A stretch of 64,000 nucleotides of DNA from Pseudaquabacterium terrae (GTDB taxonomy: Bacteria; Pseudomonadota; Gammaproteobacteria; Burkholderiales; Burkholderiaceae_C). The notes under the pieces are model-generated. The model was not told where the DNA came from, did no database searches, and saw only the letters and a list, made by a program, of their open reading frames with translations. Positions 5,505 to 20,264 of the stretch are shown one piece after another (within the stretch, counting starts at the first letter, position 1; each line of letters starts with the position of its first letter). The position numbers were made by a program, and so were the translations under genes. The DNA is taken from contig NZ_JABRWJ010000008.1 of assembly GCF_013266755.1 (NCBI RefSeq), forward strand, positions 186,001-250,000. Reading direction: 5' to 3'.

Positions 5505-5520
5505 GGTGGCGGAAGCGGTG
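5505..5520. repeat. attL core of the element
   Basis: The 16-bp sequence GGTGGCGGAAGCGGTG is identical to 20173-20188, which is the tRNA-Ser 3' acceptor and CCA region read on the plus strand. Identity stops on both sides (T against A before it, T against A after it), which defines the core exactly. Confidence 0.85.
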
Positions 5521-5570
5521 TCTTTAGAACCGTCAGGATTGGCGCGGGTTAGCGGGCAGATTCTAACCAG

Positions 5571-5592
5571 TTCCCCCATCCGTACCCCCATC
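5571..5592. repeat. Left pair of candidate integrase arm-type sites
   Basis: Two copies of (T/A)CCCCCATC lie at 5571-5580 (TTCCCCCATC) and 5583-5592 (TACCCCCATC), spaced 12 bp start to start. The same pair, spacing and orientation recur at 20041-20062 near the other end. Tyrosine recombinases of integrative elements typically bind such arm repeats. Confidence 0.6.
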
Positions 5593-5605
5593 GCGTGGAG
5601 GAGGG

Positions 5606-5625
5606 TATAGCGAAATAGCGGTGAT
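5606..5625 (+). promoter_or_regulatory. Copy 1 of a conserved 20-bp element-internal motif
   Basis: TATAGCGAAATAGCGGTGAT lies 57 bp before the alpA start. It matches 9925-9944 at 18 of 20 positions, and a partial copy lies at 8719-8731. Its position upstream of two regulator genes suggests an operator, perhaps bound by one of those regulators. Confidence 0.45.
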
Positions 5626-5681
5626 GGACTGCGCGGCTCGCCCCGCCAACACTGACTCGTCACTTCAGCACGAGACACAGC

Positions 5682-5900
5682 ATGCCGCAACCACTCTACT
5701 ACCGAGAATCCCAGCTCATTGGCCGGCGAGCCACGCCGACGCGCAGCGCGCGGACGGGTCTACTCCCGTTCAGCAGCGCCACACTTTGGCGCATGGTCAG
5801 GGCTGGCAAGTTCCCCAAGCCGGTGAAGCTCGCCGATCGAGTCACTGCATGGCCTGCCTCGGATGTCGACGCGTGGCGGCAGTCGCGCACTGCCGCCTGA
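5682..5900 (+). CDS. AlpA-family phage regulator / excisionase-like protein
   Basis: This 72-aa protein has the AlpA layout: a winged-HTH core in which LPFSSATLWRMVRAGKFPKPVKL is followed by VTAWPASDVDAWRQSR. AlpA proteins in P4-like elements activate integrase transcription or act as excision factors. The gene is the first in the element, about 160 bp from attL and downstream of the arm-like repeats and the 20-bp motif. No strong Shine-Dalgarno is seen before ATG 5682. A stable hairpin follows the stop codon. Confidence 0.85.
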   Translation: MPQPLYYRESQLIGRRATPTRSARTGLLPFSSATLWRMVRAGKFPKPVKLADRVTAWPASDVDAWRQSRTAA

Positions 5901-5909
5901 AAAGCGAAA

Positions 5910-5931
5910 GCCCGCTGCGACAACAGCGGGC
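5910..5931 (+). terminator. Hairpin after alpA (terminator or attenuator candidate)
   Basis: An 8-bp perfect stem, GCCCGCTG/CAGCGGGC with loop CGACAA, is preceded by AAA and followed by CCTCTAT rather than a T-run. A related hairpin sits at 8748-8776 and shares the flanks CGAA-GCCCG and GGGCCCTCT, so the unit appears to be reused within the element. Confidence 0.5.
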
Positions 5932-5961
5932 CCTCTATCGAACCAGAGTCTTGGGGGACTC

Positions 5962-6195
5962 GTGTCAAATCATACGTACAAACTAGACGCGCCGCAACCG
6001 CCGTGCGCCGTCTGCAGCGGCAGCACCGCGCGACGTGGCGGGACCGCTCTTGCCTTCCCACTCCTCGGCCTATTCGTGCGCATATGCCACGTGTGCACCG
6101 CACATGGCGAGGCAACCGACGAAGCGGCGGCCCGCATCGTGCGCGTGGCTATGCGTCGCAGCGGCTGGGATGCCGAATTGGGTCCGGGTCGCTGA
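5962..6195 (+). CDS. Small zinc-ribbon protein
   Basis: This 77-aa protein starts at GTG 5962 behind a GGGGGA Shine-Dalgarno. It carries two CxxC pairs (PPCAVCSG and RICHVCTAHG) that could coordinate one zinc ion, followed by a basic helical tail. Its stop overlaps the primase-helicase ATG by one base (TGATG), which indicates translational coupling. Zn-ribbon partners beside phage primases are common, so a role in replication or transcription is likely but unproven. Confidence 0.65.
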   Translation: MSNHTYKLDAPQPPCAVCSGSTARRGGTALAFPLLGLFVRICHVCTAHGEATDEAAARIVRVAMRRSGWDAELGPGR

Positions 6196-8549
6196 TGTCT
6201 ACGGCAAACCTCGGGCCGCTGCAGCCGCTCGCCGCGTACCGGCAATTCATCGTCGTGAAGCTGGCCCCGAAGCCGGACGGGAAAACGCTGAAGCTGCCAA
6301 TCCACTACGAGACGACGCGCGCCGTCGACGCGCACGACCCGCAGAACTGGACCGACTACACAACGGCAGCAGCCGTGGCGGGCGTCCTCGGGGCCGATCA
6401 TTGCGTCGGGTTCGTGCTGACGAAGGCCGCGAACGTCTGGTGCCTCGATATCGACAACTGCGCGACGCCCTCGGGCTGGTCGCCGCTGGCGAACGAACTG
6501 TGGCAGGCGCTGCCGGGAAGCGTGATCGAGGTGTCGCAGTCTGGGCGCGGCTTGCACCTGTGGGGCTTCGGGCCAGTTCCCGAGCACTCGATGAAGAACA
6601 CCGCACTCTCGTGCGAGATGTACTCGGACAAGCGATTCATTGCGCTTGGTTCGGGCGCTGTCGGCGAGATGGCGTCGAGCTGTCCAGGCATCGCCGCTGT
6701 CATCGCGCGCTACTTCCAGCCGCATGCAGTGGCCGGGGTCGACGTGCCGGCCACTGGTCCGCGAGCGGATTGGAGCGGACCAGAGGGCGATGATGAATTG
6801 ATCGAGCGCGCGATGCGGTCGCAGTCGGCCCGCGCTGCTTTCGGCGGGGGCGTGTCGTTCGCCGACCTGTGGGAGTGCAACGAGGCAGCATTGGCCGCCA
6901 AGTGGCCCGGTACCGGCGACGCGTTCGACCGCAGCGCGGCCGACATGGCGCTCTTTCAGCACTTGGCGTACTACACCGGTTGCAATCAGGGGCGCATGCG
7001 TGACATCGCCGAGCGCTCGGCGATGCGTAGGGCGAAGTGGGACGATCGAGCCGATTACCTGCCGCGCACCATTGAGCGGGCGTGCTCGCTGCAGCGCGAG
7101 GTTTACAACGACGGGCGGCGGGCCGCTGCGCCAGAAGCGGCGGGACCGGAGCCCCAGGCACCGCCGGTTCGCACCACGACCCTAAGCGCCAAAGACCCGT
7201 TGAACAGCGCAAGAGCGATCGTCGACAAGGCCTACCAAGGTCCCGGCGGATATCCGGCACTGCGCTACTGGCAGAGCGTGTTCTATCGCTGGGCAGGCGC
7301 GGCATGGGAGGACCTCCCCAACGATGATGTCAAGGCCGAGGTTTACCGCTTCATCGATCGGCACGGCTTGACGTTCAAGCCCGATCAATCAAGCGTTGCC
7401 AAGGTCGTCGACGCATTGAAAGCCGAAGTGAACTTGACGGCGCAGCACGAACCGCCGTGCTGGATCGATGGCAGCACGGGGCCGACGCCCCTGGAGTTGA
7501 TTTCAGTCGACAACGGACTACTTCACTTGCCCACGGGTCAACTGCATCCGCCGGACGTTCGACTCTTCACATTCAATGCCGTCCCCTGCAAGTACGATCC
7601 GCATGCGCCGCTGCCGTTTCAATGGCATCACTTCTTGCGCAGCATCTGGCCGAACGATCCCGAGGCAATCTCTACGCTTCAAGAGGTATTCGGCTACTTG
7701 CTCACGGCTGACACGAGTCAGCAGAAAATCATTCTCATTGTCGGTCCGAAGCGATCCGGCAAAGGAACCATTGCACGCGTACTTACAGAGCTATTGGGGA
7801 AGCGAAACGTCTATGGCCTATCGCTGTCGAGCCTGTCCGAGACGTTTGGGCTCCAACCCCTTATCGGCAAGCTCGCTGCGGTAGTGTCTGACGCCCGGAT
7901 CAGCGGACGGACCGACCAGCAGAGCGTCGCGGAAAACCTTCTGCGGATAAGCGGCGAAGATGCGGTCGGCATCAATCGCAAGAATCTGCCGCACGTGTCT
8001 TTGACGCTCAACAGCCGCTTCATCCTGCTTACCAATGAGTTGCCAAGGATTGCCGACTCGTCCGGCGCGCTCGCGTCGCGCTTCGTCGTGCTCACCATGA
8101 ATGAGTCCTTCTATGGCCGCGAGGATCGCGGGCTGACGGCTCGACTGCTTGGGGAACTACCCGCGATCCTGAACTGGTCCCTTGAGGGCTGGAAGCGCCT
8201 CAACGCTCGGGGGCATTTCGCGCCGCCGCGGTCTTCGGAAGAAGCCGCAAGCGACCTGGCGGACCTGGCATCGCCGATGCTGGCTTTCGTGCGCGAGTGC
8301 TGCACCTTGGCGCCGCTGGCCGAGGCGCCGCTCGACGCGCTCTACCTGAGGTTCCGCATGTGGGCGGGGGACCAGGGAATGACTGGGATGCTGCCAACCA
8401 AGCCGGTATTCGCCCGCGACCTCAAGTCGGCGCTGGCGGGCAAGATCACACGGCACGAGCGCCGCAACACGGCCGGCAAGAAGGAACCGTTCTATCGGGG
8501 CCTGTCTGTCCAGGGGTGTCCGGGGGTCCAGAGCATCGCGGCAACATAG
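6195..8549 (+). CDS. Primase-helicase with AEP-like and D5/SF3 helicase motifs
   Basis: The 784-aa protein starts at ATG 6195, coupled to the zinc-ribbon gene. The N-terminal ~200 residues show the three motifs of archaeo-eukaryotic primases: CLDIDN (D85, D87), SGRGLHLWG (H121) and a downstream RFIALGSG. A D5_N-like middle follows. The C-terminal part is an SF3 helicase: Walker A GPKRSGKGT (about 517-525), a Walker-B-like VVSDARISG, and motif C in TLNSRFILLTNELPR, with an arginine-finger region ALASRF. Such proteins start replication of P4-like elements at their own origin. A perfect 16-bp inverted repeat spans its 3' end. Confidence 0.9.
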   Translation: MSTANLGPLQPLAAYRQFIVVKLAPKPDGKTLKLPIHYETTRAVDAHDPQNWTDYTTAAAVAGVLGADHCVGFVLTKAANVWCLDIDNCATPSGWSPLANELWQALPGSVIEVSQSGRGLHLWGFGPVPEHSMKNTALSCEMYSDKRFIALGSGAVGEMASSCPGIAAVIARYFQPHAVAGVDVPATGPRADWSGPEGDDELIERAMRSQSARAAFGGGVSFADLWECNEAALAAKWPGTGDAFDRSAADMALFQHLAYYTGCNQGRMRDIAERSAMRRAKWDDRADYLPRTIERACSLQREVYNDGRRAAAPEAAGPEPQAPPVRTTTLSAKDPLNSARAIVDKAYQGPGGYPALRYWQSVFYRWAGAAWEDLPNDDVKAEVYRFIDRHGLTFKPDQSSVAKVVDALKAEVNLTAQHEPPCWIDGSTGPTPLELISVDNGLLHLPTGQLHPPDVRLFTFNAVPCKYDPHAPLPFQWHHFLRSIWPNDPEAISTLQEVFGYLLTADTSQQKIILIVGPKRSGKGTIARVLTELLGKRNVYGLSLSSLSETFGLQPLIGKLAAVVSDARISGRTDQQSVAENLLRISGEDAVGINRKNLPHVSLTLNSRFILLTNELPRIADSSGALASRFVVLTMNESFYGREDRGLTARLLGELPAILNWSLEGWKRLNARGHFAPPRSSEEAASDLADLASPMLAFVRECCTLAPLAEAPLDALYLRFRMWAGDQGMTGMLPTKPVFARDLKSALAGKITRHERRNTAGKKEPFYRGLSVQGCPGVQSIAAT

Positions 8550-8616
8550 CGTCAGTAAATACAGAGAAGAAGAGAGAGGGAAGGGAAGAGCAGTGAGAAA
8601 GACCCCCGGACACCCC
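8513..8616. repeat. Perfect 16-bp inverted repeat across the primase stop
   Basis: GGGGTGTCCGGGGGTC at 8513-8528, inside the coding region, is exactly complementary to 8601-8616 beyond the stop. The 72-nt loop is purine-rich (AGAGAAGAAGAGAGAGG). It could be a long-loop terminator or processing site, or part of a replication signal. Confidence 0.55.
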
Positions 8617-8811: not shown

Positions 8812-9255
8812 ATGGCTATCCACGAGTCTACGTCTTGCCCGGTCGATCCGGCATCCCCAGTTTTCTACATCCTGGCCGACGGCATCAAGCGTTTCGCGCC
8901 GCGAGCCGACGAACTGTGTTGGCGCGACCTCCCCCCGGAAGAGGGCCGCATCGTCAGCTACGAGCCCTTCACGGAATGCCCAGTGCTCCGGCTCGCAAAC
9001 GCATCGGCGTCGGCAGCGGGCTATGCGTCCGCCGAGGGCTGGGCCGCGCTGCGTGATGATCCGTTCCGCGCCGTCGGGCTGTTCGCCAGCGCCGAGGCCG
9101 CTCTCGGGGCCGCAATCGATCTGTTGGAGGATGCAGACGACGATGGCGAGCATCGCCCCACCGTGCGCGCCCTGCGAGCGCTTGAAGTCGAAGCGCGCCG
9201 CGGGCACTGGCGCGCGTGCCTGCGGTACTCACGAAATACCACGAGGACAAATTGA
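8812..9255 (+). CDS. Hypothetical element protein, acidic
   Basis: This 147-aa protein has an AGGAG Shine-Dalgarno 9 bases before ATG 8812. It is acidic in the middle (LLEDADDDGEH) and shows the phrase SPVFYILADGIKRFAPRADELCW near the start. I recognise no domain. Its stop overlaps the next start (TGATG), so it is coupled to the following small gene. The region between primase and structural genes often holds element-specific accessory proteins. Confidence 0.6.
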   Translation: MAIHESTSCPVDPASPVFYILADGIKRFAPRADELCWRDLPPEEGRIVSYEPFTECPVLRLANASASAAGYASAEGWAALRDDPFRAVGLFASAEAALGAAIDLLEDADDDGEHRPTVRALRALEVEARRGHWRACLRYSRNTTRTN

Positions 9256-9494
9256 TGATGGACGCCGACAAGATCCCTACGCTGGAACGACTCGCTGCTG
9301 CAGCCGACGTGCTGTCGTGGCTTGGCAATCGAGCAAGTCTCTTACCCGACGACCAACCCAACGGCGTGACGATGGGGCTGCAATTGACACTCGCCGCTTC
9401 CTACCTCGTGGAGTACCAAAGGCACCTCGTCGACGGCATGGAACCTTACGATGCCCTCTTAGCCACGGCACGAGGCGAACTGCGGCTGACCTGA
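9255..9494 (+). CDS. Hypothetical small helical element protein
   Basis: The protein is 79 aa from ATG 9255, which overlaps the previous stop by one base and has an AGGAC-type Shine-Dalgarno. It is predicted helical throughout. It ends YDALLATARGELRLT, close to the end of the protein at 16959-17303 (HDALLATARGTNPLHL). The two may therefore be paralogous or share an interaction motif. The function is unknown. Confidence 0.6.
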   Translation: MMDADKIPTLERLAAAADVLSWLGNRASLLPDDQPNGVTMGLQLTLAASYLVEYQRHLVDGMEPYDALLATARGELRLT

Positions 9495-9517
9495 GCCGCG
9501 CTTGGGCGGACCGGCAG

Positions 9518-9784
9518 ATGACAGTGGACAGGCGTCGGGAGACGCCCCACGCGTGGGCGCCGCCTGACCTCACGCGCGACGAGATAGCGGAGATATGCCG
9601 ACCGCTGCAGCAAGGGGCCGCGCAAGTGCGGTTCCTTCGCTCGCTCGGGCTGCGCGTTGAGCGTCGACCGGACGGCTCGCCACTGGTGAACCGTCAGCAT
9701 TACACCGCGGTCCGCGGCGCCGTCATCCAGCCGGCGATGCTCACCAGTCGGGATGACTGGCAACCGCCGACGCGGCGCAAATAG
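9518..9784 (+). CDS. DUF4224-domain phage protein
   Basis: The protein is 88 aa from ATG 9518. Its core LTRDEIAEICRPLQQGAAQV, followed by FLRSLGLRVERRPDGSPLVNR, is the DUF4224 signature found in many prophages and integrative elements, often near integrases. The biochemical role is unknown; the short basic fold suggests nucleic-acid binding. The ATG lacks a strong Shine-Dalgarno, and a GTG two codons downstream (9524) is an alternative. Confidence 0.75.
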   Translation: MTVDRRRETPHAWAPPDLTRDEIAEICRPLQQGAAQVRFLRSLGLRVERRPDGSPLVNRQHYTAVRGAVIQPAMLTSRDDWQPPTRRK

Positions 9785-9982
9785 TTTCCGGGGACCCAGC
9801 GAAACGACAGACGCACACGGGGGGGCAAAGACGCCCACCCGTCGGCGAGTTTTGGGCTCGGAAATCTTGAACATGCGTGGGTTCGCAGGGTTCGCTGCGC
9901 CGTTTCGGTCGGCTGCGATCGATCCATAGCGAAATCGCGGTGATTAACTTGCGTTCGCTGCGTGCGTACCGTTCGCACCGCA
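9785..9982. other. Intergenic candidate control or origin region
   Basis: This 198-bp gap holds four same-strand copies of GTTCGC (9881-9886, 9890-9895, 9953-9958, 9971-9976) and copy 2 of the 20-bp motif (9925-9944). Clustered short direct repeats beside a P4-type primase-helicase resemble iteron origins. They could equally be operators for the HTH gene that follows. Confidence 0.4.
9925..9944 (+). promoter_or_regulatory. Copy 2 of the conserved 20-bp motif
   Basis: CATAGCGAAATCGCGGTGAT lies 39 bp before the HTH gene. It differs from 5606-5625 at two positions and contains the inverted repeat GCGA-AA-TCGC. It is a probable operator for an element regulator. Confidence 0.45.
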
Positions 9983-10210: not shown

Positions 10211-10530
10211 AGAACTTGAACATGCTGCAGGCATGGGCGCGCACTCTTGGGCGCCCGACTTCCCGGCAGCACGAACAGCATCGCTGCGCGGTGTTGCTCG
10301 ACTGGATCGGCGAGGAGGACGTGCCCACCGAGTCGGCGGCCGAGTTTGCCGAGCGCTTCGAAGAGGTCAAACCGATCCTTGATGCGATTGACCGCGACCG
10401 TGCGCGCAAAACGCCGAGGCAAGCCGCCGCAGAGATTCGCGCCGCCCTGGCGAAGCCGAAGACGATCGCGCCCGCCGAGTACGACCCGCAAGCCGTGTGG
10501 CTTGCCCTGCGCGCGAGGAGCGCCAAGTGA
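10207..10530 (+). CDS. Hypothetical element protein
   Basis: This 107-aa protein starts at ATG 10207 in an ATGA overlap with the HTH gene. It is helical and rich in charged residues (SAAEFAERFEEVKPILDAID). The segment DRDRARKTPRQAAAEIRAAL could bind nucleic acid. No known family is recognised. It lies second in the coupled operon. Confidence 0.55.
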   Translation: MKNLNMLQAWARTLGRPTSRQHEQHRCAVLLDWIGEEDVPTESAAEFAERFEEVKPILDAIDRDRARKTPRQAAAEIRAALAKPKTIAPAEYDPQAVWLALRARSAK

Positions 10531-10892
10531 ACGAACGACTCGCACAACTACAAATCCGGCTCGCGTTGCTCAATGCTCAAACTGCGGGGCTGTCGCAAGC
10601 TCGGGCAGCGGCCGCCGAGTATCACTCGCGCTTTCGTGCAGCCATCTCACGCCATGGCGCGATGGTGTCTGCCGCCGACTTGCCCGCCCTTGCCGCGCTG
10701 CCCGCGAGCGAGCTGCAAGCACAAGGCGTCGACCCCGGCGACTTGAACCGAGCAATCAAAGACGTTCGTTTCTGCGAGGCGATCGAGCGAGAGCACAGGC
10801 GCTTGATTGTCGAAGTGGAACCGCTCCGCACGTTGATCGAGCGAATCGAAAAGGAGAGGTCGACCGACGATCAATGGAAGGCCGCATCATGA
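10527..10892 (+). CDS. Hypothetical coiled-coil element protein
   Basis: This 121-aa protein starts at GTG 10527 in a GTGA overlap, with GAGGAG as Shine-Dalgarno. It is almost entirely helical with heptad-like leucines at the start (NERLAQLQIRLALLNAQT) and end (LIVEVEPLRTLIERIEKER). The function is unknown. Proteins of this shape upstream of portal genes sometimes act in head assembly, but nothing here proves that. Confidence 0.55.
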   Translation: MNERLAQLQIRLALLNAQTAGLSQARAAAAEYHSRFRAAISRHGAMVSAADLPALAALPASELQAQGVDPGDLNRAIKDVRFCEAIEREHRRLIVEVEPLRTLIERIEKERSTDDQWKAAS

Positions 10893-11359
10893 CGACCGAC
10901 TTCAACACCCTCCGCGCGCGCATCCAGGCGCTGACGGAAGAGCGCAAGCAGCTCGACTTCTACGCGCTGAACACCGCCGAGACGCGCGCCGCAGTCGAGC
11001 GCGCTATGACGACGGCCGCCGAGTCCTACCGTGGCGGCAAGCTGCGGCAAGCGGCAGGCGATACGGCAATCAAGGGCGTGTTCCACCTTGATGTGGCCGC
11101 ATCGGACGTGCTGCCGCTGCTCGCAACGGTGCTTAGCCCGAAGAAGGTAGCCGAGGCACTCACGAGCAACCTTGCCGAAGTCGAGGACGGCCCGAAGGCG
11201 TCCGACCGCAGCAAGCGTGTCAAAGAGATCGAGGCCGAACTGCTCGAACTGGGACGCGAGGAAGAGCGCTTCATCCGCGCCGCCGAAGCGAAGGGCCACT
11301 ACATCCCGCGGCGTGCTGATGCCGACGCGTCGATTGTGCTCGCGGAGACCCTGCAATGA
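10889..11359 (+). CDS. Hypothetical coiled-coil protein upstream of the portal gene
   Basis: This 156-aa protein starts at ATG 10889 (ATGA overlap). It has an N-terminal coiled coil (FNTLRARIQALTEERKQLDF), a middle LSPKKVAEALTSNLAEVEDG, and a second coiled coil (RVKEIEAELLELGREEERF). It occupies the place where lambda-like phages carry terminase and gpW, but shows neither terminase motifs nor a gpW fold. Confidence 0.55.
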   Translation: MTTDFNTLRARIQALTEERKQLDFYALNTAETRAAVERAMTTAAESYRGGKLRQAAGDTAIKGVFHLDVAASDVLPLLATVLSPKKVAEALTSNLAEVEDGPKASDRSKRVKEIEAELLELGREEERFIRAAEAKGHYIPRRADADASIVLAETLQ

Positions 11360-13062
11360 AGGGCCGTTTCCGAGATGCCAAGGCCGTCGCGGACTTCATG
11401 GCTCGTTACGACGCGGGTGGCACCGGCCGCCGCGTCAAGTCCTGGCAGCCGCCCAGCAGCGGCCCACGCGACGCACTTCAGCCGGGCTTCGAGCGCCTTC
11501 GCAACCGGGGCCGCGACGTAGCGCGGAACGACTGGGCAGGCGAGTCGGGCGTTCAGAAGTGGACGACTACGCTCATCGGCACCGGCATTCAACCGCGATG
11601 GGCCGACCCAACCGTGAATGAAGCGTGGGAGCGGCAAGGGCGTACCTGCGACGCAGACGGCGTCAGCGATGTCTACGGGATGCAGGCGCTGGGCGTGCGC
11701 TCGTGGATCGGCTCGGGCGAGGTCTTCTTGCGATTGCGCGTCCGCAATGACTCGCTCGTGGCTCGTGGGTTTCTCGCATCGCCGGTGCAGTATCAACTCA
11801 TCGAGTCGGATTTCTGCCCGATGTTCGACGCGGATCAGTGGGACGGCATGCCGAAGGACCACTACATCCGGCAGGGTATCGAGCTGAACCGGTACGGCCG
11901 CCGCGTGGCGTATTGGATGTACCCGGAGCACCCGGGCGATCGGTCGCGCGGCATCTCTCCGGGCAAGCACGACCTCATCCGCATCCGCGCGGAGGAAATC
12001 AGCCACGTGTTCGAGCCGCTGCGCCCGGGTCAACTCCGCGGCGTGTCGCCGCTGGCGCCGATTCTGGTCAGGCTGCGCAATGCGGCCGACTTTGAAGACG
12101 CAACGCTTGACCGTCAGAAGCTCGGCAATCTCTTTGTCGCGTTCCTGAAGCGAAACATTCCGGCTGGCGCGCACCTCGAATACGATCCGGTCACCGGCTT
12201 GCCGGTCTTCTACAACCAGAAGGGCGACCCGCTCGCAGGCCTCGAACCTGGCATGTTCCAAGAGCTGATGCCGGGCGAGGAGATGCAGTTCGCGAACCCG
12301 CCTGACCCCGCGGCCTCGTACCCCGATTTCATGCGAGTGACCAATCGAGGAACCGCGGCAGGGCTTGGACTGCCCTACGAGCTGTTCGCCGGTGACATCC
12401 AAGACGTCAGCGACCGCACGCTGCGCGTCATCATCAACGAGTTCCGCCGCTACGCCGAGCAGCGCATCTGGACGATCGTCATTCCGAAACTGTGTCAGCC
12501 TATGGTCGATTGGTGGGCGATCTACGGCGCGGGCAACATCGCCCATTCGGTTGCGAGCCGCCCGACGTGGCACCCGCAGGGCTGGCCGTACATCCACCCC
12601 GTGCAAGACGTGGAGGGCAAGGTCAAGGCGATCGAAGCCGGCCTCACATCGCGATCGGCGGTGATCAGCGAACGCGGCGACGATCCGCGCGGAGTCGCGC
12701 GCCAGATCGCGGAAGACGCCGAGCTGTTTCCCGTAGCGCCGCCGACGGTTGCGCCCGCGGTCGCGTCGATGCCCGATGACCTACGGCGCTTCGAAGCCCG
12801 CGCCGCCGACCAGCAAATCGCGATGGTCAACATCCTGGCGAACCTCGTTCCGGCCATCACCGGCAAGGCCGATGCCGCGTCGCTGACGCGTGCAATCGAC
12901 GCTATCAAGGTGACGGCCGAGGCAGCCAAGGCCGCCGCGGAGAAGGCGATCGACGTGAACGTGTTGATGCCCGATCGCAAGCGAGAGACCAACGTCGAGT
13001 ATGACGCGGCGTCCGGCGAGATCGTCAAGAGCACGACCATCGAAACGTCCCTGCTGCAATGA
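11356..13062 (+). CDS. Phage portal protein, lambda (gpB) family
   Basis: The protein has 568 aa, close to lambda gpB. Family features include the N-terminal RDVARNDWAGESGVQKW, the phrase ESDFCPMFDADQWDGMPKDH, YGRRVAYWMYPEHPGD, the conserved GQLRGVSPLAPILVRLR core, and RTLRVIINEFRRYAEQRIW. Portals form the dodecameric ring at the capsid vertex through which DNA is packaged. The reading frame is intact and coupled to its neighbours on both sides. What is unusual is that no terminase precedes it and no protease or capsid gene follows it. Confidence 0.92.
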   Translation: MKGRFRDAKAVADFMARYDAGGTGRRVKSWQPPSSGPRDALQPGFERLRNRGRDVARNDWAGESGVQKWTTTLIGTGIQPRWADPTVNEAWERQGRTCDADGVSDVYGMQALGVRSWIGSGEVFLRLRVRNDSLVARGFLASPVQYQLIESDFCPMFDADQWDGMPKDHYIRQGIELNRYGRRVAYWMYPEHPGDRSRGISPGKHDLIRIRAEEISHVFEPLRPGQLRGVSPLAPILVRLRNAADFEDATLDRQKLGNLFVAFLKRNIPAGAHLEYDPVTGLPVFYNQKGDPLAGLEPGMFQELMPGEEMQFANPPDPAASYPDFMRVTNRGTAAGLGLPYELFAGDIQDVSDRTLRVIINEFRRYAEQRIWTIVIPKLCQPMVDWWAIYGAGNIAHSVASRPTWHPQGWPYIHPVQDVEGKVKAIEAGLTSRSAVISERGDDPRGVARQIAEDAELFPVAPPTVAPAVASMPDDLRRFEARAADQQIAMVNILANLVPAITGKADAASLTRAIDAIKVTAEAAKAAAEKAIDVNVLMPDRKRETNVEYDAASGEIVKSTTIETSLLQ

Positions 13063-13253
13063 TCGACCCGAACATCATCCCCAACACGTCGACGCAACAC
13101 CGCGTGCTCGACGAGATCGCCCGCCGCGGGCTGTCACTCGTTCGCCGCCCGGACGAGTCGCTTCGTCTGTCGGGCAACGGCTGCACGATCGTCGTCACCG
13201 AACTGTGCCGGCTGACGCTTGAGCACGTGCGACGCGCGAGCGAGGGGCGATAG
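13059..13253 (+). CDS. Small protein between portal and tape measure genes
   Basis: The protein is 64 aa, starts in an ATGA overlap with the portal gene, and ends (TAG) directly against the tape measure ATG. It is weakly basic, with the phrase QHRVLDEIARRGLSLVRRPD. It could be a head-tail connector or regulator, but I recognise no family. It takes the place where phages normally carry capsid and tail genes. Confidence 0.6.
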   Translation: MIDPNIIPNTSTQHRVLDEIARRGLSLVRRPDESLRLSGNGCTIVVTELCRLTLEHVRRASEGR

Positions 13254-16200
13254 ATGGCAACCGGATCGAAGCGTGACGTTACGCTCGGCGTCGAGGTCGA
13301 GACGACCGGTGAACAGGGGCTGCGCGACCTCGCCGGGGAGATGCGCGGCCTATCGACCGCAGCGGCTGCAGCGCAGAAGGCCGAGGCTGCAGCCCGCGCT
13401 GATGACAACGCAGCGAAGGCTGCCGTCCGTGAGCGTGCCCTGGAGCTGCGCCGGCTGAAGACCGAGACCGACGCCGCGAGTCGTGCCACGGTCGAGCACC
13501 AAGAGGCGGAGCGCGCCGCAACCCGTGCCCTGAACGATGCGCGGGCAGCGGCGAACGGTACTGCTTCGGCGCTCGCAAAGAAGGCCGCCGAGACTCGCCA
13601 GGCCGCTGCAGCCACGGAGCAACTGCAGACCGAGATCGACGCCACCACGCGAGCGAGTGTCGCGGGCAACAGCGCGCTATCTGACTCGCTGAAGTCTGTA
13701 GGCGGGCAGCTCACGCTGCTTCGCGGCATCGCAACCGCGGCCCTCGGCGGGACGCTGGTCGGCGGACTGGCCCGGGAACTTGCCGAGACTGCCGATGCGG
13801 CCGCGAACCTCCAGGCAAGCGTCAAGCTCGCAACCGGCGAGGGCCGAGCGTTCGCCGAGGCGTGGGCCGGCATCGGGCAGATTGCGCAGCGTACCGGCGC
13901 GGACCTCGAAGCGACGGGCACGCTGTTCGCGCGCATCTTGCAGGCGGGCAAGGAATTCGGCCTGGCGCAGCGTGACGCGCTCGCGCTGACCGAGGCCATC
14001 AATCAAGCCGTCGCGGTGTCGGGCGCATCAGCGCAGGCCAGCCAAGCGGCGATCACGCAACTGATCCAGGGCTTGCAATCGGGCGTCCTGCGAGGCGAGG
14101 AGTTCAACAGCGTGATGGAGCAGGCCCCGCGCCTCGCTCGCGCGCTGGCCGATGGGCTCGGCGTCACCACGGGTGAGCTTCGCAAGATGGCCGAGGCAGG
14201 CGCGCTGTCCTCGCAGACCGTCATTCAGGCGCTGCAGAGCCAGAGCAACACGCTGAAGCGTGAGTTCGAGTCGCTGCCGCCCACCGTCGGCCGCGCCATC
14301 ACGCAACTGTCGAATGCCTGGACCATCTATGTCGGCGAGACCTCGCAGGCGACCGGCGCGTCAAAGACCGCGGCCGATGCAATCTCGTTCCTCGCCGCGA
14401 ACCTCCGCACCGTGGCCGACCTGCTGTATGGAGTCGGCAAGGCCGGAGCGGCATACGTCGCTGTCAAGCTTGCCGCCGCGTTCATCGAGTCCGCAACTGG
14501 CGCGCGTGCCGCTGCTGCAGCGACGATCACCGCGACCGCTGCCACGACGGCCCACACCGCGGCGACCGTTGCCAACACCGCAGCGCAAGGGGCGAACGCT
14601 GCCGCCAGTGCCGGCGCTGCCGCCAGTGCTGGCCGGTTCGCGTCGATCATCGGATCGTTGAAGCTTGGCGCCCTTGCCCTTGTGGTCACGAACCTGAAGG
14701 AAATAGGGACCGCGATCGGCGAAGGCGCGGCCCGGCTCATGGGCTACGGCAAGTCGATCGATGCACTCGACGAGTCGCTGCGACGCGAGGAGGAGACGAC
14801 TCGGCGCAATGCTGCGGCGAAAGCCGAGCTGACCCAGCGCACCCTACAGGCAAGTGACGCGGCCCTCGGCCTCGGCAAGGAATCCAAGCGGCTGATCGGT
14901 GAGTTCGAAGGCGTCGAGCGCAAGGCGGGCAATGTGTCCGAGGCGCTGGAGAAGCTCGCCAAGGAATTGCGGCTCGGCGACATCAGCGGCATTCAGGCTG
15001 CCGGCGCTGCGCTAGACGCGCTGGCCGTCCGGGGCAAGATCAGCGCGGACAACGTGCGCGACGCGCTGTCAGCAGCGCTGAAGACCGAGGACTTGCTGCG
15101 CTTCGAAGTTCAGGCGCGGGCTGCCTTCGACGGCAGCGAGCAAGGCGCTCGCCGGCTGAAGGCCGCACTCGACGCGATCGCCGACGAGTCCCTGCGCCGT
15201 GCTGGCACCAGTGCCGAAGAGCTGGCTACCGGGTTCAGCAAGGCGACGACAAGCATCATCAACGATGTCGACATCGTTGCGAAGACTCTACGCGACCTCG
15301 GAGTGACCGGCGAGGATGCCGGCCGCGCGTTGACGGCGGCACTGGACAAGGCGACGGCCGCAGCGAGCACGGAACGCGCCGTGCAGGCTGTTATCGACCG
15401 TCTGCAGGCGCTGGGCAAGGAAGGGTTGCTAAGCGGCGAGCGCGTCGCCGCAGGCTTGGAGAAGGCGAAGGCCAAGCTCGACGACTTGAAGCCGGGCATC
15501 AACTCACTCGACGAAGCGCTGAAGAACTTCGGACTTCAGACGCAGGCGCAGATACAGCAAACGGCCGACAAGCTCGCCGAGTCCTACCGTGTGATATCCA
15601 CGTCGGCCGGTGTCTCGCTGCAGCAGCAGATCGAGGCCTACGGCAAGTGGCGCGCAGCCGCCCTTGCTGCGTCGGGAGGTGTCGAGTCCGGGCACCTTGC
15701 CGAACAGCGTGTGATCCTGCAGAACCGCGCCGCTGTGGCTGGGCTCGGCGACGACTACGAGCGCCACATCGGCGGGCGAGCGCGACGGGCAATCCGGGAG
15801 GTGGCGGGCGAGCTTGCGCAACTGAACGCGCAGGCCGGTTCCCTGTCGTCGTCCTTCGACAAGACCAGCCAAGCGGCGCGCAGTATCGTCGGCGGTGCGA
15901 CCTACGACAAAGACAACTTTGCGACGGGGCCGGACGGGCAGCGCATCACCGCGGGCTCGCAGCTCGAACCCCCGGACAAGTCGGGCAACTGGACGTTCAT
16001 CAGCGACGCGTCGGCGTCGGCCGGTCAGCAAACGGTGACGCTGCCTAACGGCCGGCGCACGACGGGCATCGGCGTTGCGCGGGTCGGCTACTGGGTGCGC
16101 ACGGACGGGCCGGGCGCGTCGTTCGGATTCCGTGCGTTCGAGGGCTCCCAGCAGTTCGGGTTCTTCGGCGGGCCGAACCTCAACGACTTGGGCTCGACCA

Positions 16201-16391
16201 CAACGGCCCCCGCGCCGACCGTGCGCGCTCCCTCGGCCGCTCCGGCGCCGTCGAGCGGCACCCCCGTGACCATCAACGTCAACGGCAAGCCGACAACGAT
16301 CAACGTAGCCAACGATGACGAGGCGGCCGCGCTGGCGCGACTGGTCGAGCTGCTCTCACAGGGTTTCATGGCTTCAGAGGGGGGCGTATGA
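13254..16391 (+). CDS. Tape measure protein
   Basis: The protein has 1,045 aa. The N-terminal ~140 residues are alanine-rich coiled coil. The tape-measure domain follows at about residues 150-340, with GVLRGEEFNSVMEQAPRLAR, then ADGLGVTTGELRKMAEAGAL and SSQTVIQAL. A hydrophobic alanine-rich stretch occupies about 400-480, then more coiled coil. A beta-rich C-terminus (GYWVRTDGPGASFGFRAFEG) ends in a proline-rich linker and VTINVNGKPTTINV. Tape measure proteins set tail length and enter the host envelope during DNA ejection. It is intact, yet no tail tube, tail terminator or baseplate gene accompanies it. Confidence 0.92.
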   Translation: MATGSKRDVTLGVEVETTGEQGLRDLAGEMRGLSTAAAAAQKAEAAARADDNAAKAAVRERALELRRLKTETDAASRATVEHQEAERAATRALNDARAAANGTASALAKKAAETRQAAAATEQLQTEIDATTRASVAGNSALSDSLKSVGGQLTLLRGIATAALGGTLVGGLARELAETADAAANLQASVKLATGEGRAFAEAWAGIGQIAQRTGADLEATGTLFARILQAGKEFGLAQRDALALTEAINQAVAVSGASAQASQAAITQLIQGLQSGVLRGEEFNSVMEQAPRLARALADGLGVTTGELRKMAEAGALSSQTVIQALQSQSNTLKREFESLPPTVGRAITQLSNAWTIYVGETSQATGASKTAADAISFLAANLRTVADLLYGVGKAGAAYVAVKLAAAFIESATGARAAAAATITATAATTAHTAATVANTAAQGANAAASAGAAASAGRFASIIGSLKLGALALVVTNLKEIGTAIGEGAARLMGYGKSIDALDESLRREEETTRRNAAAKAELTQRTLQASDAALGLGKESKRLIGEFEGVERKAGNVSEALEKLAKELRLGDISGIQAAGAALDALAVRGKISADNVRDALSAALKTEDLLRFEVQARAAFDGSEQGARRLKAALDAIADESLRRAGTSAEELATGFSKATTSIINDVDIVAKTLRDLGVTGEDAGRALTAALDKATAAASTERAVQAVIDRLQALGKEGLLSGERVAAGLEKAKAKLDDLKPGINSLDEALKNFGLQTQAQIQQTADKLAESYRVISTSAGVSLQQQIEAYGKWRAAALAASGGVESGHLAEQRVILQNRAAVAGLGDDYERHIGGRARRAIREVAGELAQLNAQAGSLSSSFDKTSQAARSIVGGATYDKDNFATGPDGQRITAGSQLEPPDKSGNWTFISDASASAGQQTVTLPNGRRTTGIGVARVGYWVRTDGPGASFGFRAFEGSQQFGFFGGPNLNDLGSTTTAPAPTVRAPSAAPAPSSGTPVTINVNGKPTTINVANDDEAAALARLVELLSQGFMASEGGV

Positions 16392-16666
16392 CCATTGGAC
16401 TGCACGAATACGGCGGGTTCGCCATAAGCCCCCGGCCGTTCCCTGCGCCCGGCGCTGTGTGCGCCGTGGTCGAGCTGGCCGAGCTTCAGGCCTTGCACGC
16501 CCTCGCGCGCCAGATGTTCGAGCACATCGCTGCGATGCCCGACAACCGCCTGGCGGTGCACTTCGCTGATCGCGTTGTGCGGCGCATCGGCGCGCTGCCG
16601 CAACACGTTGCTGTTATGCCACCCCGCGCCGACCGGCGCACTTCACCTGAGAACGACCCCCTATGA
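16388..16666 (+). CDS. Hypothetical element protein
   Basis: This 92-aa protein starts in an ATGA overlap with the tape measure gene. Its middle is helical (VVELAELQALHALARQMFEH) and its C-terminus is basic and proline-rich. No family is recognised. Its position directly after the tape measure gene suggests a small assembly or accessory protein. Confidence 0.55.
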   Translation: MTIGLHEYGGFAISPRPFPAPGAVCAVVELAELQALHALARQMFEHIAAMPDNRLAVHFADRVVRRIGALPQHVAVMPPRADRRTSPENDPL

Positions 16667-16962
16667 GCAATGATGCCGCGCAGGAACTGAAACAAGGAGG
16701 CGTGGCCCTTGTGGCCGCCTTCGACTCCATAAAGTCATGCCTCGATCGGCTTCGCGCCGCCCTCGAAGCCGTCCATCCGGGCGTACCGGGAACGTACGAG
16801 GCGGGAAGACAGACAGCCGAGGCGATATCAACCGGCGCTGATATGAAGCTCATCGTGCTGGAGAGCCGCAAGCAAGCGCTGGCGTTTTTCGAGGGCATGA
16901 AGGACGAATTTCAAAGCATCTACCAACAAGCACCTTCCGCGAACTCTGAGGAATCATCATGA
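16663..16962 (+). CDS. Hypothetical helical element protein
   Basis: This 99-aa protein is coupled by ATGA to its neighbours on both sides. It is helical, with KQGGVALVAAFDSIKSCLDR near the start and RKQALAFFEGMKDEFQSIYQ near the end. No domain is recognised. It is the ninth gene of the coupled operon. Confidence 0.5.
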   Translation: MSNDAAQELKQGGVALVAAFDSIKSCLDRLRAALEAVHPGVPGTYEAGRQTAEAISTGADMKLIVLESRKQALAFFEGMKDEFQSIYQQAPSANSEESS

Positions 16963-17303
16963 CCATCACCGCAACCCGTACCGCCGAGATGCACGCAGCG
17001 ATTGCCGCAGCACGCGTCAACGACCACATGGAGAGCAACCCCAAAACTTACCCCAGCGGCATGACGACGTTCTACGAACTCGGCAAGCAACGGGCCGCCG
17101 AGTCGCTGAGTTGGGCGCAGGCAAAGGCGATCGTCGACAAGAGCGACGCTACCCTGGCGGCCGAGCTGATCGGGACCGAGATCGAGCCCGCCGGCGCACT
17201 GTGGGAGACCATCGCTCAGGTGAGTGCGTACCGCAGCGGCGTGCTGGAGGTCCACGACGCGCTGCTGGCGACTGCCCGCGGGACCAACCCGCTCCACCTG
17301 TGA
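16959..17303 (+). CDS. Hypothetical element protein with DALLATARG tail
   Basis: The protein has 114 aa and an ATGA-coupled start. It is helical, with WAQAKAIVDKSDATLAAELI in the middle, and ends HDALLATARGTNPLHL, which recalls the small protein at 9255-9494. The following gene product contains ALLAARCSQGTNPLDAL, so the ALLA...GTNPL phrase recurs. The function is unknown. Confidence 0.55.
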   Translation: MTITATRTAEMHAAIAAARVNDHMESNPKTYPSGMTTFYELGKQRAAESLSWAQAKAIVDKSDATLAAELIGTEIEPAGALWETIAQVSAYRSGVLEVHDALLATARGTNPLHL

Positions 17304-17578
17304 CCATCCGGTCAACGTTTTGCCTCGGCACGCGGGGCTTCTCGCCGCCGGGAGCCGCGGTCTTCACCGTCAACGCCGAGGACATGCTAGCCCTCGCCAA
17401 GGCAGTCAACGCGGCGGCCGTGCTCGCTGAGGAAGGCGGTAGTGAGGCGCAAGTCCGCCAAGCGGCGACCGCTGCGAATCGCGCGCTGCTGGCGGCCCGC
17501 TGCAGCCAGGGGACGAACCCGCTGGACGCGCTGAAGGCCTTCGCCGAGTCGATCCGGGCCTACGCGCCGCCCCCGTGA
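17300..17578 (+). CDS. Hypothetical element protein, last of the coupled operon
   Basis: This 92-aa protein starts at GTG 17300 in a GTGA overlap. It is mostly alanine-rich helix (ALAKAVNAAAVLAEEGG) with the phrase ALLAARCSQGTNPLDALKAF shared in part with the previous product. It ends 44 bp from the convergent HEPN gene; that gap contains no clear terminator. Confidence 0.5.
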   Translation: MTIRSTFCLGTRGFSPPGAAVFTVNAEDMLALAKAVNAAAVLAEEGGSEAQVRQAATAANRALLAARCSQGTNPLDALKAFAESIRAYAPPP

Positions 17579-17622
17579 ACGTCGGTCGATCGCGCAGGAC
17601 GACGTAGCCTGCAGCAAGTCCT

Positions 17623-18807
17623 CTAGAACGGAACGTCTTCGTCAGAGATGGATGCTGGCATCCACGGGTACTTTTCGGCCTCGGTAACGTAGTCTGTGCC
17701 GTAGTCCCCCATGGCTCCCCAATATTCGACGCTATCAATTTCGCTCAAGTCAGTACCAAGCTTTCGCGTGTCGACAACCCAATACTCGTTTCCGAAAGAA
17801 GCGGCCTTCTGAAGGCTCGCCGAGACTTCCTTTGCTTCAATCAATTCACCGCGCGCCAAGTTGTCTTGCTTCACCAGTTCGGTTTCCTGCTCCACTTGCA
17901 GCGCCATGTCCTTCAAGGATTGAGATATATCGATCACCTTGGCAGTCAGCGTCGGCTCCGAGAACACGATGTTGATCGATCGCTGCACGATCGGCGCGTC
18001 CCCCCTTACCTCAGAGGATGTATGCCCGTCGGAAATGAAGATGCACGCGTCTCGAATCTTCTCGAAATGCTTTACAACTTGAGCCGTGCGCAGCGTCGTC
18101 ACGCGACTTGTCAGGTAGTCACGATCGCTGTACATGTGGTTCCTGAGAACGGTGCAGCGTTGGGTCACTCGTATGCGAATCCACTTCTCGTCGGGACTTG
18201 AGAAGATGTTTGTCGCGAAGTGTGGGTTACCAATCGGCTTTATTTGTTTGTACCATTCTCGATCGGAGTTTGTTGGCACGACATTCCGAATGCCCGATAT
18301 CCGTCCTAGACAAGCCTGAACCTCTAGCAGCACATGCTTCGTTGTTTGCTTTATCAATTCGACGTCATCTTGGCGAATCGGGCGGAAATGGGCCAGTGAA
18401 TTTCTGACGGTATTGATTTCTGCAAGCTTGGTTTGAATTACACCCTGCTTTGCTCGGAAGTACGGCGCAAAATGCTTCCAATAGGACTCGTGGAGCATGA
18501 TTGTCGTAAGGTCGCCGCTGCTTAGAAACAGCATTGGGGACGTCACGACCTCACCGACATACCCGTGATCGTTGGCCTGAGCAATGCGCTTTTTGGTTTC
18601 GCTGCGGATTGTTCCGGCCCCGCCAATGCTGGCGCTGTCCCAGTCCTTGCCGAGGCTATCCTTTAGGACGACATACACAAACAAGCGCAGCGCGTTCTCG
18701 AATCTGAAGAGAATGTTTAGCGCTTCGTAGTAGTAGAGATGTAGCCAGCTCCCGGGAACCTTTACCATCCCGTCCGTCACCTGAGCCGCCTTCCAATCCA
18801 TAGCCAT
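17623..18807 (-). CDS. HEPN-domain protein with RNxxxH motif (candidate defence cargo)
   Basis: The protein has 394 aa from ATG 18807, placed by a GGAGG Shine-Dalgarno. Early helices read YYEALNILFRFENALRLFVY (the E..LR helix usual in Swt1-like HEPN domains), and R135-N136-SLA-H140 in INTVRNSLAHFRPI is the HEPN ribonuclease motif. The C-terminal half has no domain I can name and ends in an acidic tail. HEPN RNases act in abortive infection and toxin-antitoxin systems. The gene lies alone, opposite to the structural operon and next to the integrase, the usual cargo slot of satellites. It is clearly less GC-rich than its surroundings, which suggests separate acquisition. No antitoxin gene is evident. 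Confidence 0.7.
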   Translation of the reverse strand: MAMDWKAAQVTDGMVKVPGSWLHLYYYEALNILFRFENALRLFVYVVLKDSLGKDWDSASIGGAGTIRSETKKRIAQANDHGYVGEVVTSPMLFLSSGDLTTIMLHESYWKHFAPYFRAKQGVIQTKLAEINTVRNSLAHFRPIRQDDVELIKQTTKHVLLEVQACLGRISGIRNVVPTNSDREWYKQIKPIGNPHFATNIFSSPDEKWIRIRVTQRCTVLRNHMYSDRDYLTSRVTTLRTAQVVKHFEKIRDACIFISDGHTSSEVRGDAPIVQRSINIVFSEPTLTAKVIDISQSLKDMALQVEQETELVKQDNLARGELIEAKEVSASLQKAASFGNEYWVVDTRKLGTDLSEIDSVEYWGAMGDYGTDYVTEAEKYPWMPASISDEDVPF

Positions 18808-18852
18808 CACGCGCCCCTCCGCATCAAGCGGGGAAATATAACCTTGGGGTGG

Positions 18853-20028
18853 CTACCCGAGGAACTCCGCCCACTCCGCCATCAACGCGCGCCGCTTCTC
18901 GAACAGATCGCCGCGCCGATACGCTGCCTCGGTCTGATCGCCGATAGCATGGGCTAGGGCCATTTCGCGGACCTCCGCCGGGGTCGCGGTCCGCTCGGCG
19001 CACCAGTCCGAGAACGTGCTGCGCAACCCATGCGGGACGGCCGTCAAGTTCATCCGGCGCATGACCGCCGTCAAGCTCATGTCCGACAACGGCTTGTCAA
19101 CGTCACGGCCCGGAAAGATCAACTCGACGTCTTTGAGTCGGGGGAGGGCCTTCAACAGCGCGACGGCAGCCGGGGACAGCGGCACGCGGTGCTCACGACC
19201 GGACTTCATCACGTCCGCCGGACACGTCCACACGGCCGCCTTGAGGTCGACGTTCCCCCACGTCGCCGCCCGCACCGCGCCGGTCCGGCTGGCCGTCAGA
19301 ACGGCGAACTCCAGCGCTCGGGCGCTCGTGCCGGCCGTTGCCCGCAGTCGCTTCATGAAGGCGGGCGCGTCGTCGATCGGCAGGGCCTCGAAGTGCGCGC
19401 GCTTGTTGACCTTGCCCGGCTTCGGCAGGGCCGCGTCGAGATTGCCGCGCCAGCGCGCCGGGTTGAGGCCTTCCGGCCGTAGCTCGCGCTGCACGGCATA
19501 GTTGAGAACCAGCTCGATCCGGCTGCGCAGGCGGACCATCGTCTCGTTCTTCGTCGACCACTCCGGCTCGATCGCCGCCAGGACATCGGCCTTGGTCACG
19601 TCGCGCACGTGCTTGGCGCCGAACGTGGGGTAAGCGTACGTCTGCAGCGTGTTCTCCCACTGCTGGGCGTGCTTGGCGTTCTTCCAGCTCGGCCGGTGCG
19701 CTTCGATGTAGGCCTCGGCGGTTCGCTGAAAGGTCCACTCGATCGTCTGCCGCGTGGCTCGACGTGACGCCGCGGGGTCGACGCCGGCCTTGATCTGCTG
19801 CAGCGTCGACCGAGCGCTCTCGATCGCCTGCGCGAGCGTCACCGTGGGGTAACCCCCGAGCCCCAGCTCGGCCCGGCGCGCGCCGACCATCGTCCGCAGG
19901 ACCCACGACTTCGTGCCGCTGGGCTTGACGTACAGGCGCAACCCGCTGACGGTGCCGACCGGGTGCAGGCCTGGCACGGCGAGGCGCTTGACCTCCAGGG
20001 CTGACAGCGGCTTGGCGAGCTTCGGCAT
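18853..20028 (-). CDS. P4-type tyrosine integrase
   Basis: The 391-aa protein starts at ATG 20028, chosen for its GGAGGA Shine-Dalgarno; the frame is open to 20061. The N-terminal DUF4102-type domain (LRLYVKPSGTKSWVLR, ELGLGGYPTVTLAQA) is followed by a SAM-like core-binding domain and a catalytic domain with R248 (TASRTGAVR), H333-R336 (HGLRSTFSDW), H360 (LAHAIG) and Y370 (AYRRG). All five residues needed for catalysis are present. It lies beside the tRNA-Ser attachment site. Two candidate arm repeats sit in its own leader, so it may repress itself. Confidence 0.93.
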   Translation of the reverse strand: MPKLAKPLSALEVKRLAVPGLHPVGTVSGLRLYVKPSGTKSWVLRTMVGARRAELGLGGYPTVTLAQAIESARSTLQQIKAGVDPAASRRATRQTIEWTFQRTAEAYIEAHRPSWKNAKHAQQWENTLQTYAYPTFGAKHVRDVTKADVLAAIEPEWSTKNETMVRLRSRIELVLNYAVQRELRPEGLNPARWRGNLDAALPKPGKVNKRAHFEALPIDDAPAFMKRLRATAGTSARALEFAVLTASRTGAVRAATWGNVDLKAAVWTCPADVMKSGREHRVPLSPAAVALLKALPRLKDVELIFPGRDVDKPLSDMSLTAVMRRMNLTAVPHGLRSTFSDWCAERTATPAEVREMALAHAIGDQTEAAYRRGDLFEKRRALMAEWAEFLG

Positions 20029-20040
20029 AGTTCCTCCCGT

Positions 20041-20062
20041 CTCCCCCATCTGTTCCCCCATC
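20041..20062. repeat. Right pair of candidate integrase arm-type sites
   Basis: CTCCCCCATC (20041-20050) and TTCCCCCATC (20053-20062) repeat the left pair in sequence, orientation and 12-bp spacing. They lie just upstream of the integrase start, 111 bp from the attR core, and overlap the probable integrase promoter or leader. Confidence 0.6.
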
Positions 20063-20172
20063 GATCGATGAGGTTGACTGACATGAGGCGAAGTGACGTG
20101 ATTCGAACTATACGGGAGAAGAGGGCTGTTTTTGGGGGATCTGATGCGTCACGAGGACGCCTGCCACCCCTA

Positions 20173-20188
20173 GGTGGCGGAAGCGGTG
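20173..20188. repeat. attR core within the 3' end of tRNA-Ser
   Basis: This perfect 16-bp copy of 5505-5520 covers the tRNA CCA and acceptor-stem 3' strand. The tRNA gene therefore stays intact after integration, as usual for tRNA-targeting elements. Confidence 0.85.
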
Positions 20189-20264
20189 AGATTCGAACTC
20201 ACGGAGGGGATGAACCCTCGCCGGTTTTCAAGACCGGTGCCTTAAACCGCTCGGCCACGCTTCC
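20175..20264 (-). tRNA. tRNA-Ser (anticodon UGA)
   Basis: The gene is 90 bases including an encoded CCA. The acceptor GGAAGCG pairs with CGCTTCC. The D-arm TGGCCGAGCGGTTTAAGGC is of serine type, the anticodon loop is CTTGAAA within CCGGT/ACCGG, the long variable arm (GAGGGTTCATCCCCTC) is class II, and the T-arm has GTTCGAATC. A weak TACGAT -10-like box lies 15 bp upstream on the minus strand. It is the attachment site of the element. Confidence 0.97.

Follow-up and report, generated by a model that had tools for sequence, protein, structure and literature searches.

A compact tRNA-Ser element of Pseudaquabacterium terrae with its own tape-measure and portal genes: a probable phage satellite

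Introduction

Satellites with their own tape-measure protein (TMP) were described in March 2026 for the phage-inducible chromosomal island-like elements (PLEs) of Vibrio cholerae (PMC12987554). PLE11 particles contain the satellite TMP and hub, the ICP1 counterparts are absent, and the tails are 10 nm shorter; deletion of tmp cuts transduction by ∼99.9% for PLE11, 96% for PLE1, and 99% for PLE4 (PMC12987554). Putative tmp genes are also mentioned for PLE-like elements and a sampling of capsid-forming phage-inducible chromosomal islands (cf-PICIs; PMC12987554, discussion and legend of Extended Data Fig. 10). Here, we analyze a 14.7-kb element (positions 5505 to 20188) within a 64,000-nucleotide stretch of the Pseudaquabacterium terrae genome, referred to as the window. 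It is integrated at a tRNA-Ser gene and carries portal and TMP genes next to genes for an integrase, an AlpA-family regulator, and a primase-helicase. In our reading, which is probable if by no means certain, the element is an integrative phage satellite: virions derived from a helper would incorporate its TMP and perhaps also its portal. The observations behind this reading are the anatomy of the element, its exact ends, an integrase-primase-TMP core in two relatives at other tRNA genes, the long retention of the TMP, and its capture on more than one occasion.

Tail assembly is also a known target: Tab acts on the TMP (PMC10884400), Rta targets the TMP of ICP1 (PMC12987554), and Tai, which is found in PICIs and P4-like satellites, blocks tail assembly (PMC11364771). 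P4-like satellites and the Pseudomonas element AH14b (16.8 kb) share with the window element an integrase, an AlpA-like regulator, and a primase, but AH14b is reported to lack a head-neck-tail gene (PMC4936722), whereas the window element has a portal and a TMP.

Like the PLEs (PLE1, PLE4, and PLE11), the window element is small and integrative and combines its own TMP with few virion genes. The PLE TMPs function with the contractile-tailed ICP1, accompanied by a chaperone (TAC) and, in the case of PLE11, by a baseplate hub. In contrast, the window TMP is of siphophage type and is accompanied by AlpA, primase-helicase, and portal; no TAC or hub was recognized, and the small open reading frames (ORFs) preceding the TMP match no family. 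PICIs carry an integrase, AlpA, and a primase, and cf-PICIs a set of head genes. The window element shares the first three genes with PICIs, but no packaging redirector or small terminase subunit (TerS) was recognized in it (TerS is present in L180, one of the further loci described below). It also resembles those cf-PICIs that have putative tmp genes, but of head genes it has only a portal, with no capsid or terminase recognized.

Results

The element is bounded by two exact copies of a 16-bp direct repeat, found by sequence comparison and checked by hand. The right copy forms the 3′ end of the only tRNA gene that ARAGORN detects within the window (Table 1), which confirms the ends proposed in a preliminary description of this DNA. 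In random sequence, a 16-mer match between stretches of 401 and 251 bases would arise ∼2e-5 times, a value that the GC bias raises somewhat. In two genomes of the same genus, G401 and G416, the tRNA is 100% and 98% identical and the sequence beyond it 79% and 77%. The alignment of both to the window ends at the 3′ end of the tRNA, which supports the right junction. An intact empty site was not found in the stretches from G401, G416, and G414; the left-flank gene is missing from all three stretches examined, and the one from G414 also lacks the tRNA. The GC content of the element (64.9%) is slightly lower than that of the flanks (68.9% and 69.9%).

We compared 18 window proteins with Pfam and PHROGs, a set that includes an uncertain frame (5863-6192) and a left-flank ORF (4391-5479). 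AlpA, primase-helicase, portal, TMP, and integrase are all encoded by open frames and supported by family matches, as the preliminary description had proposed. It had also listed portal and TMP as the sole recognizable virion genes, and indeed no terminase, capsid, major tail, hub, fiber, or other tail family was recognized among the 18 proteins. Three of its suggestions were not borne out: DUF4224 was not found, the ORF at 9962 being weakly AlpA-like; the putative Zn-ribbon ORF matches no family; and the likeness to capsid-remodeling satellites lacks a recognized capsid-size gene in the window. No window ORF matched P4 psu, sid, or delta at the level of PHROGs and Pfam families, the P4 proteins themselves not being part of this comparison. 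With genes for integration, regulation, and replication but an incomplete virion set, the element fits phage satellites in general, and its AlpA/Vis-type regulator, primase-helicase, and tyrosine integrase are the trait combination of P4-like elements. The TMP extends over the full length; its N-terminal and central parts are conserved, and its C-terminal end is recognizable. The frames from 10889 to 13062 are chained, the portal start overlapping the upstream stop and the portal stop overlapping the next start.

A portal-based scan of genome contigs turned up no relatives of the element. The corresponding TMP-based scan yielded 39 loci, two of which match over nearly the full TMP: L112 from Ideonella sp. 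A 288 (56% identity to the window TMP) and L113 from a Rubrivivax metagenome-assembled genome (48%). Both are integrase-primase-TMP elements of 13.8-14.4 kb with several small ORFs and a full-length TMP, bounded by 49-bp repeats at a tRNA-Lys gene (L112) and 48-bp repeats at a tRNA-Asn gene (L113). Their primases are related to that of the window (54% identity to L113 over the N-terminal 300 aa), and their integrases are of another kind. Homologs of the window ORFs at 8812 and 9962 and of the 64-aa ORF occur in L112, and the ORF at 10889 has homologs in both. The preliminary description had reasoned that relatives with terminase, capsid, and tail genes in the same place would mark the element as a deletion derivative. 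In L112 and L113, no portal, capsid, terminase, or other tail gene besides the TMP was recognized, with about a dozen ORFs of ≤163 aa lying outside the PHROG scan. Opposite-strand frames displaced some real small ORFs when ORFs were picked for the profile scans, so a TerS, neck, or chaperone gene could be missed, but genes for a large terminase, portal, or major capsid protein are too long to hide there. Neither locus matched the window portal nor, outside the TMP, any of 26 non-TMP reference proteins of phages ACF1 and Y8A. This check spoke against a deletion. The preference of the preliminary description for a satellite-like element over a decayed prophage is supported, since the relatives have likewise retained their TMPs within small elements of this kind.

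The portal slot of L112 and L113 holds a protein of 208/209 aa without known family. We therefore rejected the portal as a core gene; the TMP is the virion gene kept by all three elements. A common C-terminal tail of the portal and the 208/209-aa protein is only suggestive: the last 45 aa scored as well in 2-4 of 1000 shuffles, a longer tail in 160 and 14 of 1000, and hhalign gave a probability of 15.6% (P 0.0017). For the 209-aa protein (AF2 mean pLDDT 70), Foldseek gave nothing below E 0.001 in either BFVD or PDB.

A tree of 63 TMPs groups those of the window, L112, and L113 in one clade (SH-aLRT 100), with 0.7-1.15 changes per site along the paths between them. Because these three TMPs constitute a single, long-diverged clade, the window element is not a recent deletion derivative. 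The window and L112 genes differ mostly at third codon positions (0.31, 0.26, and 0.54 differences per first, second, and third position). The clade is nested among TMPs of phage-tail loci, the nearest outside rows being, for example, L033, L035, and L036. These loci have the usual phage order of major tail protein, TMP, and hub-type gene; L053 is cut by the contig end.

The closest TMPs on phage contigs are those of L033-L036 (51-55% over the matched part). The nearest phage portals are those of Curvibacter phage PCA1 (50.8%) and Acidovorax phage ACF1 (50.1%), both of which we take to be Burkholderiales siphophages; contig L031 and a genome of the same order, G088, have portals at 54%. Unlike the window element, these phage loci contain genes for a major tail protein and a hub-type protein in their tail modules or, in ACF1 and L031, also terminase and capsid. 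Among the contigs with the nearest TMPs, L036 has a portal match, which is only 28% identical to the window portal; none was seen in L033, L034, L035, and L053, all of them short contigs. Since the nearest portals (ACF1, PCA1, L031) and the nearest TMPs come from different phages, the pair is best explained, as judged from these identities, by separate acquisitions. The tape-measure gene of Psychrobacter phage Y8A is separated from the tail module and found several kilobases downstream near a KilA-N gene (L169, 9329-12838 and 19134-22616). Y8A was considered as a phage with two TMPs and rejected, because the product of the gene at the customary position resembles tail-hub-type proteins of ACF1; the TMP has therefore moved.

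We found eight further TMP loci, each with an AlpA-like gene. L101 and L170 come from a TMP scan of viral contigs, and L176, L179, L180, L182, L300, and L305 from primase scans, which are unbiased by the TMP. L101 spans 17.2 kb and contains integrase, AlpA, TMP, and primase, with near-repeat ends beside a tRNA-Leu gene. L170 (15,981 bp, first seen as L077) carries integrase, AlpA, a Rha-like regulator, primase, and TMP between 14-bp repeats (113-126 and 15878-15891), the integrated form of a 15.8-kb element. Rejoined L170-type ends are present in other IMG/VR samples (L078, 6184-6197; L076, 7432-7445), so both integrated and excised (circular or concatemeric) forms are on record. In L305, the integrase gene lies beside a tRNA-Leu gene. 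Two loci stand apart: L114 has a TMP with no integrase seen, and L137 (Thiocapsa), despite TMP, AlpA, and integrase, was left out for its gpG-like gene and a probable, unscanned transposase. In L298, two integrase-like genes (226-1665 and 8883-9929) flank the AlpA-primase core.

Of 11 viral-contig loci with a close primase (L172-L182; L171 was left out, as the C-terminal end of its primase lies at the contig start), four contain a TMP (L176, L179, L180, and L182). None was seen in the longer L172, L177, and L181, and the ∼5-kb loci L173, L174, L175, and L178 could not show one. IMG/VR admits contigs partly by their viral genes, and this share may therefore be inflated. All 94 primase-found loci (L172-L265) were screened by BLAST against our own TMP set, which would miss unlike TMPs. 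Such a primase was present in 35 of 300 Burkholderiales genomes; in 20 regions fetched from the 40 rows listed, some of the long ORFs were profile-searched (PHROGs) and the rest judged chromosomal by eye.

Several of these loci carry one additional virion gene. L101 encodes a capsid-like protein (13381-14409; phrog_4523, 5e-23) beside TMP and primase; it matches only the capsid half of protease-capsid fusions and is possibly a modifier of capsid size or assembly. L180 encodes a TerS (phrog_57, 2e-24). In L182 and L305, a minor tail protein of phrog_1924, presumably the family named gpZ-like, is encoded just upstream of the TMP (33% identity to each other). Comparing the TerS, gpZ-like, and capsid-like proteins across 11 TMP loci, we found relatives only in this gpZ-like pair. 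Another 118 ORFs from a set of eight TMP loci added no further head or tail families among the best 25 of 27 families, except for a weak tail-completion match of this gpZ-like protein. A rough control with 112 ORFs from 23 primase loci (the TMP-bearing L179 and L182 among them) gave one gpZ-like protein (L182), one TerS (phrog_57), and two late-activator families, and no capsid, portal, or large terminase, among the best 25 of 38 families.

A single TMP group comprising the window clade, L101, and L076/L077 was rejected by the approximately unbiased test (p-AU 1e-5; cost 668 log-likelihood units), a grouping that was defined by gene content when the tree was already known. At the level of the TMP tree, capture on more than one occasion is thereby shown. 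Moreover, the TMPs of L176, L180, L300, and L305 have best PHROGs that differ from the best matches of the window TMP. The closest pair, L076/L170, differs by 0.015 nonsynonymous (dN) and 0.13-0.18 synonymous (dS) changes per site over the first 400 codons and is identical afterwards (mosaic); the ratio, based on 52 changed codons, indicates purifying selection. Shorter tails as a rule are unsupported. The TMPs (1040-1055 aa in the window group, 1087 aa in L101, and 1340-1353 aa in L076/L077) are not consistently shorter than those of the nearest phages, and that of L101 exceeds its neighbors' 918 and 944 aa.

Discussion

If the element is a phage satellite, integrase and AlpA would govern its integration and excision at tRNA-Ser, and the primase-helicase would replicate it during growth of a helper siphophage. 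The satellite would then supply its own TMP and, in the window copy, probably its own portal, while the helper would provide the remaining head and tail proteins. We infer helper dependence, packaging, chimeric tails, and a role of the portal, and by analogy with the PLEs the insertion of the TMP into siphophage helper tails. The satellite TMP would set the length of the chimeric tail and guide DNA entry into the next cell. Having its own portal could favor satellite DNA, mark procapsids for it, or set the start of the procapsid. Possible gains from an own TMP include escape from tail-targeting defenses, loading of satellite DNA, and ejection into new hosts.

Several findings weigh against this reading. 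No helper has been identified, and the genome that harbors the window (G000) contains no GpA-type terminase, second TMP_3 gene, or second portal match, other terminase types not having been searched. No helper of these types resides in the genome; an infecting helper is possible. No TerS was recognized in the window (no search was made for cos or pac sites) and no tail chaperone among its proteins, whereas PLEs carry one. The portal is present in only one of the three clade members. Among the further loci, L176, L179, L180, and L182 are contig fragments in which no integrase was seen, so that larger phages are possible there, and L300 lies in a genome, yet no tyrosine integrase is in view. Finally, a TMP was seen in two of the 20 same-primase Burkholderiales regions (L300 and L305), which makes it accessory in the wider primase class.

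As Tab, Tai, and Rta make tail assembly a known target, an extra TMP might compete there. It could be a decoy that ties up tail chaperones or hubs of the helper and blocks helper tails without entering satellite virions. We regard this as unlikely: a full-length TMP with its conserved parts exceeds the needs of a decoy, the gpZ-like, TerS, and capsid-like neighbors in other loci suggest building, and the TMP of PLE11 is a part of the virion. The element could also be a decayed prophage, the remnant of a siphophage from which terminase, capsid, and most tail genes were deleted while portal and TMP stayed. Both genes are clearly phage derived, no helper is at hand, and one deletion could yield the pair without intervening genes. 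But the frames are intact and overlap from start to stop between 10889 and 13062, the relatives share the core without the portal, and their TMPs have long diverged together. In addition, the distant portal of L036 and the presence of the nearest portals in ACF1, PCA1, and L031 make a single deletion in one such phage insufficient. The relatives, the TMP clade, and the different phage sources of portal and TMP led us to reject a deletion derivative of a local prophage as the leading explanation, and we consider it improbable. Equally improbable is an integrative element that depends on its own replication and spreads by transformation or general transduction, with TMP and portal as cargo of unrelated function: the core does live without a TMP, none being seen in 18 of the 20 same-primase regions (not every long ORF scanned), but the same kind of gene was captured more than once and is under purifying selection in L076/L170, the sole measurable pair.

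Returning to the satellite reading, a broader proposal, to which we give somewhat less than even credence, is that P4-type (AlpA-primase) satellites have converged repeatedly on TMP capture as a strategy. Lineages unrelated to one another would have drawn on different siphophage sources, often adding one gene that acts at the junction of DNA, head, and tail (portal, TerS, gpZ-like, or capsid-like). The satellite would thus supply the parts that govern how long a chimeric virion is and how it is loaded and ejects its DNA, and the helper the rest.

The principle of a satellite with its own TMP has been known since 2026, because PLEs were shown to build chimeric tails (PMC12987554). The suggestion in the preliminary description of an undescribed satellite family can thus be kept for the lineage, not for the principle. 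A search of the open-access literature, beyond which most subscription papers lie, revealed no description of the lineage of the window, L112, and L113; this lineage, the siphophage-type TMP, its pairing with a portal, and the recurrence appear to be new. If our reading is correct, tail piracy by means of a private TMP would have evolved repeatedly, as a general trick extending to non-contractile phages and other bacteria, and an orphan TMP beside integrase, AlpA, and primase would be a sequence marker for satellite discovery. Why satellites want their own TMP would become testable by comparing lineages that have the TMP alone with those that add portal, TerS, gpZ-like, or capsid-like genes.

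Other features of the element and its flank

The features of the element are compiled in Table 1. AF2 models the 156-aa protein upstream of the portal as all helical (mean pLDDT 79).

Table 1. Features of the window element and its integration site
Feature	Position	Strand	Evidence
Left attachment repeat, 16 bp	5505..5520		exact copy of 20173-20188
AlpA-family regulator/excisionase, 72 aa	5682..5900	+	PF05930 8e-8; phrog_66
Primase-helicase, 784 aa	6195..8549	+	phrog_1829 1.4e-127, PF22763, PF08706
147-aa protein, conserved in relatives	8812..9255	+	38% over 71 aa to L112 ORF near 5966, 2e-14
Small helix-turn-helix/AlpA-like protein, 82 aa	9962..10210	+	phrog_66 0.0016; 32% to L112 7032-7412, 4e-8
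Small protein, no known family	10527..10892	+	open frame; longer 10497 frame without Pfam/PHROG match
156-aa helical protein, core gene	10889..11359	+	31-34% to L112 8111-8605, L113 8381-8881
Lambda-family portal, 568 aa	11356..13062	+	PF05136 1.8e-99
64-aa protein directly 5′ of TMP	13059..13253	+	L112 homolog in same place, 5e-6; no known family
Tape-measure protein (TMP_3), 1045 aa	13254..16391	+	PF20155 1.3e-61; phrog_12706 5e-123
Three small overlapping ORFs (92, 99, 114 aa) 3′ of TMP	16388..17303	+	no family match
HEPN_Swt1-domain protein, probable defense cargo	17623..18810	-	PF18731 1.4e-6; PADLOC PDC-M34B 2e-14
Tyrosine integrase, 402 aa	18853..20061	-	PF22022, PF13356, PF00589
Right attachment repeat, 3′ end of tRNA-Ser	20173..20188		exact copy of 5505-5520
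tRNA-Ser(tga), integration target	20175..20264	-	ARAGORN; same tRNA and right flank in G401, G416

P4-like elements carry defense cargo, and candidate defense matches (PADLOC) were found in the window, L112, and L180. The window match is to the HEPN_Swt1 protein, which the preliminary description had not mentioned. In L112, a SoFic-like ORF (13403-13984; PADLOC 2e-17) lies near the tRNA end, roughly at the position of the HEPN protein of the window. In L180, the locus with TMP and TerS, a ShosA-like defense protein (10839-11846; PADLOC 1e-98) is encoded directly 3′ of the primase. In the window, the tRNA is adjoined by a gene for a 1318-aa protein (20342-24298), which we take to contain a zinc-protease-like HEIGHALG stretch, Ig-like repeats, and GGxGxD repeats. 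Partial paralogs of it are found nearby in the same genome and in genomes of the same genus.

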